Part shown: positions 54,345 to 61,293 of the stretch, piece by piece
How positions within the stretch are numbered: the stretch's first letter is position 1
Layout of the letters: the number at the start of each line of letters is the position of its first letter
Source of the DNA: Fimbriimonadales bacterium
Lineage (GTDB): Bacteria; Armatimonadota; Fimbriimonadia; Fimbriimonadales; ATM1
Direction: 5' to 3'
DNA: 64,000 nt
Assembly: GCA_026129745.1 (NCBI GenBank)
Contig: JAHCHL010000010.1
Location: 1 to 64,000 of the forward strand
Made by a program: the position numbers and the translations under genes
Notes under the pieces: generated by a model
Databases searched by the model: none
What the model was told of the DNA's origin: nothing
Seen by the model: only the letters and a program-made list of their open reading frames with translations

Positions 54345-54358
54345 GCGGCTTCTCCAAA

Positions 54359-54456
<98 letters not shown>

Positions 54457-55843: not shown

Positions 55844-56638
55844 CTAAACCTCTTTCCTATCGAAAACAAGAACTGAGAGAATCAGCAGAATGCCAATATA
55901 TGCAAGGGCATAGAGCATTCCCTGAGTCATATAGACAAGTTCACTGCCGCCGATTCTTGTGCCAGCTTCCGATGCGGCGTTCGTCGAGATGTCGAGTGTG
56001 CTGAAGTTAGGTACTGCATAGTGCGCAATCTTTGTAATGACTTGCATTGCCGGCTGGTTTCCGCGCTCACCGAGCGCCTCAAAGAGCGGATTAAGCAAAG
56101 TCCCAAAAACAAACACCAGGCCTGTCAGGAAGAAATTGACGACTGGTGTGACGAACGTTGAGAAGAACATCGCAACGGCTGCCAAGAGGCTCATCTGGAA
56201 CACCAGCATGATCGATGACCGGATGATTGGGCCAAGATCCTTCATGTCGAAGGTCTGTTGCTGAATCACGAATGCTACAAGCAACACCAGCGTCATCATT
56301 CCGATCATCAGCGTGAGTGCGCCAACAGACCCGAAGAACTTGCCCAGCAGAAACTGATAGCGCTGAACCGGCTTGCTGAGTATCGTGTAGATTGTGCGCC
56401 GTTCGACTTCATTTGGCAGCAAGTAAACGGTCAAGGTTACTGCTAGGATTGCAGAAGTAATCTTTAGAATACCAAGCGTCATCTGAATCAGAACCATCCT
56501 CTCGCCTCGCGGAGTTAGCTGGTTCAGGCTGGGGGAGATGATAAGAAAGGCCAAACCTACCATCAAAATAATCAGGAGGACGCGTCGCCGAATAGCCTCG
56601 CCAAGAGTCGTGCTGGCTATTGCTAGAATCTGACTCAT
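55844..56638 (-). CDS. ABC-2 type transporter permease
   Basis: 264 residues with six predicted membrane segments: about 18-38, 55-80, 98-125, 140-165, 170-190 and 235-258. The conserved element ERRTIYTILSKPVQRYQFLLGKFFG is the cytoplasmic signature of the ABC-2 family related to NosY. The start overlaps the ATPase stop by 4 bp. It forms the channel of the exporter with the upstream ATPase. Substrate unknown. Confidence 0.87.
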   Translation of the reverse strand: MSQILAIASTTLGEAIRRRVLLIILMVGLAFLIISPSLNQLTPRGERMVLIQMTLGILKITSAILAVTLTVYLLPNEVERRTIYTILSKPVQRYQFLLGKFFGSVGALTLMIGMMTLVLLVAFVIQQQTFDMKDLGPIIRSSIMLVFQMSLLAAVAMFFSTFVTPVVNFFLTGLVFVFGTLLNPLFEALGERGNQPAMQVITKIAHYAVPNFSTLDISTNAASEAGTRIGGSELVYMTQGMLYALAYIGILLILSVLVFDRKEV

Positions 56639-57579
56639 CGTGCATCCTCCCTCTTGATTCGTTCCGTCGCTCGAGTTACCGTCTCAACGAATAGGTCCTC
56701 AAGACGCTTCCTCCGGGGAATCACACTGATTACTCGACCCCCAGCGGTACGGATCGCATCGAGGAAACCATCGGAGCCAGCAGAATCTGGCGCATCGATG
56801 ATCAGTCTTCCCCCGTGATTAGAAACGATCACTCCATCAGTTCTAAGTGAATCTACGGCACCGTCTGGGACCCCTTCCGCCTGGATCTCTATTCTTCCAC
56901 CCTTTAGCAGGTCGTCGAGCTTGCCTTGCTGCTCGACCTTTCCCTTATTGAGAATGGCAACTCGGTCGCAAATCCTTTCAACGTCAGACAATTCGTGGCT
57001 CGAAATAAAGACCGTCTTGCCTTCATCCCTCATTTGGAGGATTAGGTCGCGAATCTCGACATGGGCAATCGGATCGAGACCCGCCGTCGGTTCGTCGAGA
57101 AAGAGAAGAACCGGGTCGTTCAGCAAGCTTTGCGCAAGCCCAATCCGCTGCTGCATTCCTTTTGAATATTGCGAAATGGTTTTGGCTCCATCTGAGGCGA
57201 GGTTGACCTTCTCAAGTAGTGCCGTTGCTTTCGCCGCCCGCTCCGCGGGACCGATGTTGAACAGCTTCGCATAGAAATTCAGGATCTCCATCCCGGTCAT
57301 ATGCTCGTAGTAGTACGGCTTTTCTGGGAGGTAGCTGATCTTTCGGTGTATCTCCATATCACCGACTTCCTTGCCAAGCAACCACGCTTGCCCGGAAGAG
57401 GGGTAAGAGATGCCGAGCAACATCTTGATAGTGCTTGTCTTTCCTGCACCGTTTGGTCCGAGGAAGCCATATATCTCGCCCTCCTCGACTTCTATGTTCA
57501 GGTTGTCTACAACGTTGACCGATCCGCTTCGAGTGCGGTAGGTTTTTGTCAGGTTCTCAGTCTTAATGGCTGTTGGCAC
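56635..57579 (-). CDS. ABC transporter ATP-binding protein
   Basis: 314 residues, GTG start (VPTAIKTENLTKTYRT) with AAGG nine bases upstream. Walker A GPNGAGKTSTIKML at about 40-53, signature YSKGMQQRIGLAQSLL, Walker B LLFLDEPTAGLDPIAH, and a switch His in VFISSHELSD. The last ~80 residues form the extra C-terminal domain seen in NosF/CcmA-type gliding and exporter ATPases. It starts the ATPase-permease-TPR operon. Confidence 0.9.
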   Translation of the reverse strand: MPTAIKTENLTKTYRTRSGSVNVVDNLNIEVEEGEIYGFLGPNGAGKTSTIKMLLGISYPSSGQAWLLGKEVGDMEIHRKISYLPEKPYYYEHMTGMEILNFYAKLFNIGPAERAAKATALLEKVNLASDGAKTISQYSKGMQQRIGLAQSLLNDPVLLFLDEPTAGLDPIAHVEIRDLILQMRDEGKTVFISSHELSDVERICDRVAILNKGKVEQQGKLDDLLKGGRIEIQAEGVPDGAVDSLRTDGVIVSNHGGRLIIDAPDSAGSDGFLDAIRTAGGRVISVIPRRKRLEDLFVETVTRATERIKREDAR

Positions 57580-57767: not shown

Positions 57768-57773
57768 CATAAT
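57768..57773 (+). promoter_or_regulatory. Putative -10 box of the 57.8-kb small RNA
   Basis: CATAAT, preceded by an A-rich stretch (57729-57742) that could act as an UP-like element. No convincing -35 hexamer. A start near 57780 would fit the RNA structure. Confidence 0.35.
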
Positions 57774-57779
57774 GGTAAG

Positions 57780-57899
57780 GCCATCGGTCGAGACCCCGAG
57801 GAAGGTTCAAACTACCGGAATGGGCCCAACGGTCGATGGCAAAAGCTTGCGGGAACGTGCTTTGCTCTCCTTTCGGCGTTCCCGCACTTTTTATTTTTT
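57780..57899 (+). ncRNA. Putative small structured RNA with intrinsic terminator
   Basis: A gap of 343 bp (57580-57922) holds no gene. In it GCCATCG (57780-57786) pairs with CGATGGC (57834-57840), enclosing a GGTTCAAACTACC hairpin. Next comes a perfect 10-bp terminator stem, TGCGGGAACG (57848-57857) with 57877-57886, followed by CTTTTTATTTTTT. A CATAAT box lies just upstream. The expected product is about 115-120 nt. It is not 5S, 6S, SRP, tmRNA or RNase P RNA by their known cores. A leader of the next gene is unlikely because that gene has its own -10 box after the T-run. The first 190 bp of the gap show nothing clear. Confidence 0.55.
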
Positions 57900-57922: not shown

Positions 57923-58909
57923 ATGAAGGCTCTCTTTACTGAGTGCAAGGAAGGGGACTTGGAGTTCTATCCCTCCGCTCTTCAAGGGATTGAAGTCGAA
58001 GCCACCACACTCTCTCTCAAAGAGATCCACCCAGATCCCGAAACTAGTGTCCTCTCGGTCATGGTCCACAGTCCGGTTGGGGAAGTCGAAATGGAGCAAT
58101 TGCCCAAGCTGCGCCTAATCACGACTCGTTCGACTGGCTTCGATCATATCGACTTGATTACTGCCTCCAAGAAGGGCATCGTGGTCTGCAATATCCCGGA
58201 CTATGGGTCGCGAACAATAGCAGAACACACAATTTTGCTTCTCCTGGCGATCATGCGCAGACTCCCCGCGGCCAGGGCTCCTATCGAGAGTGGCCGATTC
58301 AGTCTCGAAGGGCTCCTTGGGTTCGACATGTTTGGAAAGACCCTCGGTGTGGTGGGCACCGGACTGATAGGTGGCGAGGTCGCTCGGATGGCGCGGTGCC
58401 TGGGCTTGCGCACCATCGGGTTCGATCCCCAACCGATCCCTGGAAAAGTCGACCAGTACGTCACCCTCGAAGCTCTCCTTTCTGAATCTGACGCCATTGC
58501 CATTTGTTGTCCGTTGAATCCACAAACACGCCATATGATCGGAAGGGAGGAATTTCGGAAGATGAAGCGCGGCGTGTTTATCGTCAACACTGCAAGGGGC
58601 GCGATTATCGACAGCTCAGCACTTCTGAACGCATTGGAATCCGGTCATGTAGCATGCGCTGGACTTGATGTGCTTGAACGCGAAGACTTAATGCGAATCG
58701 GCGCGAATGCACTAAACCAATACTCGATGACTGAAGAAGAAAAGGCAATCGTTTCTATCAATCTGAGACTTATGAAGCATCCAAACGTGCTGGTGACACC
58801 GCATATGGCTTTCTACACACAAGAAGCGAGACAACGAATCAGAACGCAAACTGTTGAGAACATATTAAGCTTTTTGAAGGGTAAACCCATTCGAGTCGTC
58901 AATCAATAG
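57923..58909 (+). CDS. D-isomer specific 2-hydroxyacid dehydrogenase
   Basis: 328 residues. NAD-dependent reduction of a 2-ketoacid to the D-hydroxyacid, D-lactate dehydrogenase (LdhA)-like. The Rossmann motif is LGVVGTGLIGGEVAR at about 140, followed by an Asp (GFDPQP) for NAD. Catalytic residues: Arg in VNTARGAIID, Glu-Asp region CAGLDVLERED, and His in LVTPHMAFYT. N- and C-terminal parts form the substrate domain. The stop overlaps the convergent Na/Pi gene by 7 bp. The exact substrate is uncertain. Confidence 0.88.
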   Translation: MKALFTECKEGDLEFYPSALQGIEVEATTLSLKEIHPDPETSVLSVMVHSPVGEVEMEQLPKLRLITTRSTGFDHIDLITASKKGIVVCNIPDYGSRTIAEHTILLLLAIMRRLPAARAPIESGRFSLEGLLGFDMFGKTLGVVGTGLIGGEVARMARCLGLRTIGFDPQPIPGKVDQYVTLEALLSESDAIAICCPLNPQTRHMIGREEFRKMKRGVFIVNTARGAIIDSSALLNALESGHVACAGLDVLEREDLMRIGANALNQYSMTEEEKAIVSINLRLMKHPNVLVTPHMAFYTQEARQRIRTQTVENILSFLKGKPIRVVNQ

Positions 58910-60483
58910 GCGACTTGGTCGTCAATGGTCTCTGGACCATAGAGATAGAAAGCCGTTCTTCCGACGTGCCTTAGGCATTGATCAGCCCATCGAATGAAGT
59001 CCAAGTGTGCAAAGGACTCTTCGGGATTCGCTTTGCCAATTGCCGTGTCCGATAGAACCTGATGCCTTGCGTCTCTAAGCAAGTCTCGAACCGACCCGAT
59101 GATGGTTTCGCTTCCAGTTGCAGGTCGGCTGTCGTCCGAACGGTTGCTTGTGTTCAACAACTCGAATGCCCTGGCAAGAGAAACTTGGATCTCAGAGTCC
59201 AAAGACTCTGGAACTCGCTGCATGACCAACAAGAGCTTTGATAGTTCGGCAAGATGATCGACAGCGTGTAGGTTTGCCACATGCCGTTTGTGATCAACCT
59301 GTGAGTTTGGATCTATTACAGTTGCTGCCATAAACTTGCGCACAGCTTCGAGAGCCTGCATGGTGTTCTTTGCTGTCCTCTCAGCTTCTGCCCGGCCGTT
59401 CTGGCGTCGGATCACCGTTGCTCCTACCTTGCCTATTTCTGCCGCAATGTCTGCCAGCGTTCGCTTTGCAGCCTCAATGGCTACGGGGCCTGTTTGGGTG
59501 ACACTTCGGTCAAGGCGAGACACCAGTGGCGACTTAGTTTCTGGGATCAACCGTCCGACCCACATCGAAAACGGACGAACGAGAGGCAGAAAGATCAGTA
59601 CGCCAATTGCGTTGAATGCCGTATGAAACGCGGCAATGCTGACGGCGGCCGGATCACTAGGAATCGCCGTGCGCACCGCTTCCGAGATCGTTCCCAATGC
59701 AGGTAGTGCAAGCACTGCGATAACTCCGGTGCCCAAATTGAACAAGATGTGAGCAAGGGCTGTTCTCTTAGCTGCAGCTGATGCCCCTATCGCAGCAATT
59801 GCAGCGGTTACCGTCGTTCCGATGTTTTGACCAATGACAAGGGCACCAGCCTGGTGCAATCCGATGGCGCCTGCATTCAAGGCCGTCAATGTCGTCGCCA
59901 CGGCTGCGCTAGAAGACTGCATAACGATCGTCATCGCTGCGCCAACTGCGATGAGTGCCAAGACCTCAACGATGCCGCTGCCCACAAACTTTTGGAGATC
60001 GAATCTTGTGGACAAGTCCGCCATGCCTTCCTGCAACGTGTCGATTCCGACAAAGATCAGCCCGAAACCCGCGAGTGCGGTCCCGAACGCTCTGAGCCTT
60101 CCGTGACCAAACATCCGGAATCCAACACCAACTCCAACAAGCGGCAAGGCGACGATAGAAACACTGAATTTCAGCCCCAGCAACGAAACGATCCAACCCG
60201 TACTTGTGGTGCCGAGATTTGCTCCAATAATGATGGAAACGGCGCTGGTCAACGAAATTAACCCCGCACTGACGAAACCGATCGTCATCACCGTCGTAGC
60301 GCTCGATGATTGAACGACCGCCGTAATACCGACGCCCGCGAGAAATCCACGTATCGAGCCGCCGGTCAGCTTTGTGAGCGCCCGCCGAAGCGCGTCGCCG
60401 GCCAGGCTCTTAAGGCCCTCGGTCAACTGCGACATGCCCAAAATGAAGAGGCCGACACCGCCAAGAAGATATGCGACCATCAT
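58903..60483 (-). CDS. Na/Pi cotransporter family protein (NptA/YjbB-like)
   Basis: 526 residues. Inverted repeats each carry the QSSS motif: VVQSSSATTVMTIGF near 60 and VMQSSSAAVATTLTA near 190. About eight to nine membrane segments lie within the first 315 residues. The C-terminal cytosolic ~200 residues are a PhoU-like helical domain. Imports or exports phosphate coupled to sodium, with the PhoU part probably controlling flux. No other phosphate genes lie nearby. A TAGAGT box ends about 10 bases before the ATG. Confidence 0.88.
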   Translation of the reverse strand: MMVAYLLGGVGLFILGMSQLTEGLKSLAGDALRRALTKLTGGSIRGFLAGVGITAVVQSSSATTVMTIGFVSAGLISLTSAVSIIIGANLGTTSTGWIVSLLGLKFSVSIVALPLVGVGVGFRMFGHGRLRAFGTALAGFGLIFVGIDTLQEGMADLSTRFDLQKFVGSGIVEVLALIAVGAAMTIVMQSSSAAVATTLTALNAGAIGLHQAGALVIGQNIGTTVTAAIAAIGASAAAKRTALAHILFNLGTGVIAVLALPALGTISEAVRTAIPSDPAAVSIAAFHTAFNAIGVLIFLPLVRPFSMWVGRLIPETKSPLVSRLDRSVTQTGPVAIEAAKRTLADIAAEIGKVGATVIRRQNGRAEAERTAKNTMQALEAVRKFMAATVIDPNSQVDHKRHVANLHAVDHLAELSKLLLVMQRVPESLDSEIQVSLARAFELLNTSNRSDDSRPATGSETIIGSVRDLLRDARHQVLSDTAIGKANPEESFAHLDFIRWADQCLRHVGRTAFYLYGPETIDDQVAY

Positions 60484-60612: not shown

Positions 60613-61293
60613 TTAGGCTGCCTGCGGCAAATCAGAACTGGATGAGAGTCGCCAAAGGTCGTTGTCGGCATCTCTCACCGCTTCCATAAAGGCCCGAAGC
60701 TTGCCGTGGTCCTTAACGCCTGGTGCAGACTCAACCCCTTCGCACACATCAACAGCGTACGGCTTGACTTTCCTAATAGCTTCCCCAACGGTGTCTGGAG
60801 TCAATCCGCCTGCAAGGATCACAGGAAGCCTGCATGCCTGCACGAATTCTGCGGCAACTTCCCAATTCAACGGAGCGCTCGAGTGATCCCAATTTGGAAT
60901 GAATGTGTCAAGCAAGAATGCTGAAGCAACGCGCTGAATCTCGAGCAGTTCATCGACTGTGGCCTCTGCATCCAATCTCAATGCACGAACGTGCGCCTTC
61001 GGAGGTCCACCTCCAACACTTACGATGACTGGAAGCTTGCCCTCTTCTGACTGCAAGACGTCAAAGAATGAAAGTTGCGGCGGAAGCAAGAACTTTGGCA
61101 CTCGCTGAAAGACTGCAACCATCGTTACAAATGGCGGCACATGGTGCTTTCGCTTGAACATCTCATTGTCCTGACGGACAAATCTCGGACTCTTCGGCTC
61201 TAAAACAAGGCCGACCGCGCTCGCTCCAAAGTTAACTGCCGCTTCGAGGTCATCCCACCTCGTAACTCCACAAATCTTGACTCGTGTCATCAT
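60613..61293 (-). CDS. trpF: Phosphoribosylanthranilate isomerase
   Basis: Third-stage enzyme of tryptophan synthesis (Amadori rearrangement). 226 residues. VKICGVTRWDDLEAAVNFGA carries the catalytic Cys, GLVLEPKSPRFV the phosphate-binding region, LDTFIPNWDHSSAPLNWE the catalytic Asp, and LPVILAGGLTPDTVGEA the second phosphate loop. GGAGG lies just before the paired ATG ATG. It stands alone, without other trp genes. Confidence 0.93.
   Translation of the reverse strand: MMTRVKICGVTRWDDLEAAVNFGASAVGLVLEPKSPRFVRQDNEMFKRKHHVPPFVTMVAVFQRVPKFLLPPQLSFFDVLQSEEGKLPVIVSVGGGPPKAHVRALRLDAEATVDELLEIQRVASAFLLDTFIPNWDHSSAPLNWEVAAEFVQACRLPVILAGGLTPDTVGEAIRKVKPYAVDVCEGVESAPGVKDHGKLRAFMEAVRDADNDLWRLSSSSDLPQAA

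Follow-up and report, generated by a model that had tools for sequence, protein, structure and literature searches.

To our knowledge, small regulatory RNAs (sRNAs) rarely keep a recognisable sequence beyond the genus or family. Loops complementary to the Shine-Dalgarno (SD) sequence, in several sibling RNAs per genome, characterise AbcR and the cuckoo (CcsR) sRNAs of alphaproteobacteria, sX13 of Xanthomonas and LhrC of Listeria. AbcR1 has been termed an anti-SD sRNA (PMC6234868). RepG of Helicobacter pylori pairs through a C/U-rich loop in its terminator hairpin (PMC8295292), and in RoxS/RsaE, FsrA and CsfG of Bacillus and Staphylococcus exposed C-rich stretches pair with mRNAs, including their ribosome-binding sites, and similar C-rich regions are common to several sRNAs of one genome (PMC8216469). 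No regulatory RNA of Armatimonadota was described in the literature searched. The RNA reported here, which we call type A, is encoded in a 64,000-nucleotide stretch of a Fimbriimonadales genome (the window); in kind it appears to be a C/U-rich-loop sRNA, and as a family it appears to be new and unusually widely conserved, with paralogues sharing one loop. Pairing through a C/U-rich terminator loop, as proposed below for type A, is a feature of RepG (PMC8295292), but RepG pairs with homopolymeric G-repeats, whereas the type-A loop UUUGCUCUCCUUUC matches SD-type purine stretches, and the two RNAs come from different phyla and have no sequence relation. RoxS/RsaE, FsrA and CsfG differ in architecture and seed, the predicted type-A seed lying in the terminator loop and being nearly invariant across the order, and their Rfam models give no match to type A; nor do the Rfam models indicate homology with AbcR, CcsR, sX13 or LhrC.

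The RNA lies on the forward strand in the gap between the start of a divergent ABC transporter ATPase gene (Pfam ABC_tran, 56635-57579, minus strand; start at 57579), which is outside the RNA and marks the syntenic locus, and the start of a 2-hydroxyacid dehydrogenase gene (57923, plus strand). Its architecture (57768-57899, plus strand) consists of a -10 box, a 5' hairpin, a short linker and an intrinsic terminator hairpin. The -10 box, CATAAT (57768-57773), precedes an RNA of about 113-116 nt (57780-57892), whose 5' end was placed from this box and whose 3' end was placed from the T-run. In the minimum-free-energy fold the 5' hairpin spans 57780-57840, and its closing stem, GCCATCG (57780-57786) with CGATGGC (57834-57840), is extended by folding to 11 bp (57790 with 57830) and encloses a weak inner hairpin. 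The linker AAAAGCTT (57841-57848; consensus GAAGCCU in family f4) leads into the terminator stem, in which the arms GCGGGAACGT (57849-57858) and GCGTTCCCGC (57876-57885) form 10 pairs around a 17-nt loop that holds the nearly invariant UUUGCUCUCCUUUC (57861-57874), with CUCCUUU at 57867-57873. The T-run (57888-57899) is present in every aligned relative. A prior reading of the DNA letters (the sequence-only reading) had proposed a new, independent small RNA of about 120 nt from a -10-like box, closing stem, inner hairpin, 10-bp terminator stem and T-run in a gene-free gap, all of which are indeed in the sequence; it overlooked the anti-SD-like terminator loop, which is the most important feature of the RNA, and the reuse of that loop in a second RNA of the genome.

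Folding energy by itself does not set the RNA apart from chance (z = -1.56; 16 of 200 shuffles fold equally well), and promoter and terminator scans of the region missed it, the terminator scan because the loop exceeds that program's limit of 8. The evidence that 57768-57899 encodes a real, free-standing and independently made small RNA is instead comparative, namely matches in relatives, covarying stems and an independent model match, and on these grounds we judge it to be real. BLAST of the DNA against 60 related genomes returned matches down to 1e-19, with the 3' half found in many and the terminator as the best-conserved part. In an alignment of 17 terminator hairpins from 17 genomes, 99.4% of the stem cells were paired, 6 of the 10 pairs had changed on both sides, and none of 500 shuffles reached the observed scores; G-U pairs were frequent in this stem, and the plus strand is therefore the functional one. 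The covariance model R1, built on the terminator hairpin, matched in 80 of 113 Fimbriimonadales genomes and in 78 of 251 genomes drawn from the phylum Armatimonadota; 44 of the 113 each had a single strong copy, scoring at least 60 bits, the threshold that defines type A. Low-scoring R1 matches (L132-L137, L139-L141 and L146) proved to be ordinary terminators lacking the loop, and we discounted them as chance.

The region upstream of the terminator is conserved as well. At 39 type-A loci a TATAAT-like box and a 5' hairpin precede the terminator, and the RNAs, measured from the box, are mostly 111-129 nt long; at the -10 place A2 occurred in 38 of the 39 hexamers, T3 in 37 and T6 in 37, although the boxes were picked by eye and these counts are partly circular, and a -35 box is weakly visible. 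In 19 sequences from family f4, chosen because they are well alignable, covariation extends over the closing stem, the inner stem and the terminator stem: two-sided changes affect 14 of 21 pairs, 8 of the 11 in the two stems of the 5' hairpin among them. No covariation score among 500 shuffles was as high, and slid controls were far lower. The window's own family contributed no sequence to the full-length model built from this alignment (R2). R2 matched the window at 57770-57893 (68.2 bits, E = 2e-15), the terminator probably contributing most of the score. Most members of the window's own family have the 5' hairpin, but its sequence cannot be aligned among them, and two type-A copies (L018 and L080) have no clear 5' hairpin. 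The sequence-only reading had counted an Rfam match, or conservation confined to the terminator, as evidence against it. Rfam has no match (below), and in the relatives the 5' hairpin covaries and the -10 box precedes it, so that, as judged from these comparisons, the whole RNA is conserved and not the terminator alone.

These data bear on the possibility that the conserved element is a terminator shared between convergent transcription units, with no regulatory RNA at all. The terminator is the best-conserved part and most relatives have a convergent gene ahead, as this explanation would predict, but we regard it as very improbable: an invariant 14-nt loop is no requirement for termination, the covarying 5' hairpin with its upstream -10 box would be left over, no proper T-run is present on the opposite strand, where the G-U pairs become mismatches, and other loci carry this loop on different stems.

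Gene neighbourhoods likewise argue for autonomy. The divergent ABC ATPase gene adjoins the RNA in 35 type-A copies, with a permease gene beyond it in 31. Of the 36 type-A loci with a callable gene downstream, 33 have that gene facing the RNA in convergent orientation. The usual convergent neighbour is trpF, an orthologue of which lies directly downstream in about 20 other type-A loci; in the window, trpF (Pfam PRAI, 60613-61293, minus strand) is separated from the RNA by the dehydrogenase and a Na/Pi cotransporter gene (57923-60483). The dehydrogenase starts about 30 nt past the terminator on the same strand in this genome, which could suggest a 5' leader or attenuator of that gene. This arrangement was found at none of the relatives' loci examined, however, and the nearest homologues of the dehydrogenase are located elsewhere; by its position it is a local insertion between the RNA and trpF, and the RNA therefore does not look like its leader. 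Nor was a co-oriented downstream gene conserved with the RNA, of the kind expected for a leader, riboswitch or attenuator, found across type-A loci. From this synteny a leader role is very unlikely, to the point that we give it almost no credence, as the sequence-only reading had held. Part of that reading's argument did not survive, in that the -10 box it assigned to the dehydrogenase itself (TAGACT) is weak and a consensus scan gave no promoter there; the autonomy of the RNA does not depend on this box, since the comparative data suffice for it.

The sequence-only reading held that no known housekeeping RNA or riboswitch core fits the locus, and Rfam 15 returned nothing at gathering thresholds in the region, the best sub-threshold scores being 12.9 and 11.3 bits (E up to 10). 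Elsewhere in the window, at 54357-54455 on the minus strand, lies a bacterial small SRP RNA (RF00169, 64.7 bits). A sponge, a 6S-like RNA or another housekeeping RNA would fit the conservation across the order and the usual single strong copy per genome, but there is little to recommend it, because no Rfam model matches at a useful score, the RNA, unlike a housekeeping RNA, has been cleanly lost from the syntenic locus in several genera and so is dispensable over evolution, and the loop has no recurrent complement in the genomes besides the RNA genes themselves.

Viral contigs gave no match to the RNA, and a scan of named genomes yielded 52 stretches, mostly from Armatimonadetes, Fimbriimonadales and Chthonomonadia. 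Among matches whose titles name other phyla, most scored below 21 bits with the hairpin model and lacked the stem, in keeping with the estimated 15 or so chance matches, and were rejected. Two such contigs, JADZEW010000031.1 (L286, 'Methanoregulaceae archaeon SJ84') and DDBP01000352.1 (L262, 'Anaerolineales UBA2029', titled as Chloroflexota), carry the full type-A hairpin; probably they are mislabelled or were binned wrongly.

Columns of the terminator loop are invariant or nearly so in both alignments (17 and 19 genomes), and the CUCCUUU within it equals the anti-SD core in the 3' end of this genome's 16S rRNA, GGATCACCTCCTTTAAAGG. The loop is predicted to be unpaired, with a mean probability of 0.90 in 39 type-A RNAs and 0.94 in the window RNA, and a pseudoknot with the 5' hairpin was rejected (mean z = 0.08); type A thus has a C/U-rich loop that is complementary to SD sequences and predicted to be accessible. 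Its 14 nt are almost unchanged across the order, and sibling RNAs with the same loop occur in other Armatimonadota families. Type B is an RNA of about 60-70 nt in which GAGUUCACCUUCCUUCC is followed by a hairpin with the type-A loop on a different stem; this stem covaries too (two-sided changes in 6 of 9 pairs; covariation score equalled by 0 of 500 shuffles), and type B also has a second 16S-tail-like stretch, GUUCACCUUCC. The present genome holds one type A, in the window, and one type B (G000:C10:4162-4205), and type B extends to other Armatimonadota families (L126-L131). Type C, from family f2, has the loop GCUUUGAUCCUCCUUUCGA and carries GAUCCUCCUUUC, which resembles the 16S tail.

The RNA probably controls the translation of other genes. 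We consider it fairly likely that it does so as a trans-acting regulatory sRNA of the RepG kind, whose loop pairs with SD regions and blocks translation, possibly assisted by Hfq. By this mechanism the RNA would be transcribed from its own sigma-70-like promoter and stop at the intrinsic terminator; the loop UUUGCUCUCCUUUC, kept open, would base-pair with purine-rich, GAAAGGAGAGC-like SD regions in a group of mRNAs, thereby excluding ribosomes, with Hfq perhaps helping, and the 5' hairpin would protect or present the RNA, its sequence free to drift while the fold stays. We infer these steps, from transcription in cells to mRNA pairing, repression and any dependence on Hfq, from the features above. 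SD-like motifs precede 17 of 50 long open reading frames in the window, compared with 13% of random 15-mers, and Hfq is encoded in this genome and was found in 106 of 113 genomes searched.

The search for targets gave no conserved specific mRNA. Outside the RNA family, the loop had exact 12-mer complements about as rarely as a reversed control did, and the few complements that fell on SD sites did so in different genes in different species. An extended conserved mRNA target was rejected, because 15-mer and 12-mer loop complements match mostly the genes of the RNA itself and are otherwise scattered. A recurrent extra complement site in family f2 resembles a further copy of the RNA. The neighbouring ABC operon was rejected as a special partner, since the loop pairs with its ribosome-binding sites no better than the 16S tail does.

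Alternatively, the loop may serve as a decoy, protein-binding or ribosome-linked, which copies part of the 16S 3' tail and titrates a tail-handling or other CU-binding protein, mRNA pairing being secondary. The lack of a conserved mRNA target is compatible with this, as are the second tail-like stretch of type B and that of type C, and the loop is more invariant than pairing with variable SD sites would require. Simple SD pairing leaves the invariance of UUUGCU unexplained, because the invariant part reaches past the anti-SD core, and there is therefore room for a protein-binding or ribosome-mimic role. We nevertheless consider a decoy rather unlikely, because the match of type A to the 16S tail is 7 nt only, the protein partner is hypothetical, and with Hfq present ordinary sRNA pairing is available. 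A broader interpretation, also unlikely, is that types A, B and C are phylum-wide paralogous mimics of the 16S tail that act as global translation modulators and not as regulators of a few mRNAs; they would then compete with the ribosome for SD sequences generally, or titrate a protein that binds the 16S tail. The clean covariance model, which can serve annotation, the syntenic locus and the precise loop make anti-SD mimicry as a conserved regulatory device directly testable.

Several further observations concern the sibling RNAs. Rfam gave nothing at type-B and type-C loci besides a tRNA. The type-B locus of this genome (L003, about 1490-1533) has the upstream stretch GAGTTCACCTTCCTTGGGG, and in several relatives from families f1 and f2 type B adjoins a divergent MacB/FtsX-like permease gene. 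The loop of type C, GCUUUGAUCCUCCUUUCGA, is even closer to the 16S tail; type C (L115-L117, L119 and L120) consists of near-identical elements present in multiple copies within a genome, which may be mobile or recently duplicated. Common to type-B loci (L113, L118, L123, L125 and L127-L131) is a promoter-like pair, CCTGAAGAA ... CCGATAAT/CCATAAT, which sits about 30-60 bases before GAGTTCACC and resembles a box recognised by one specific sigma factor.
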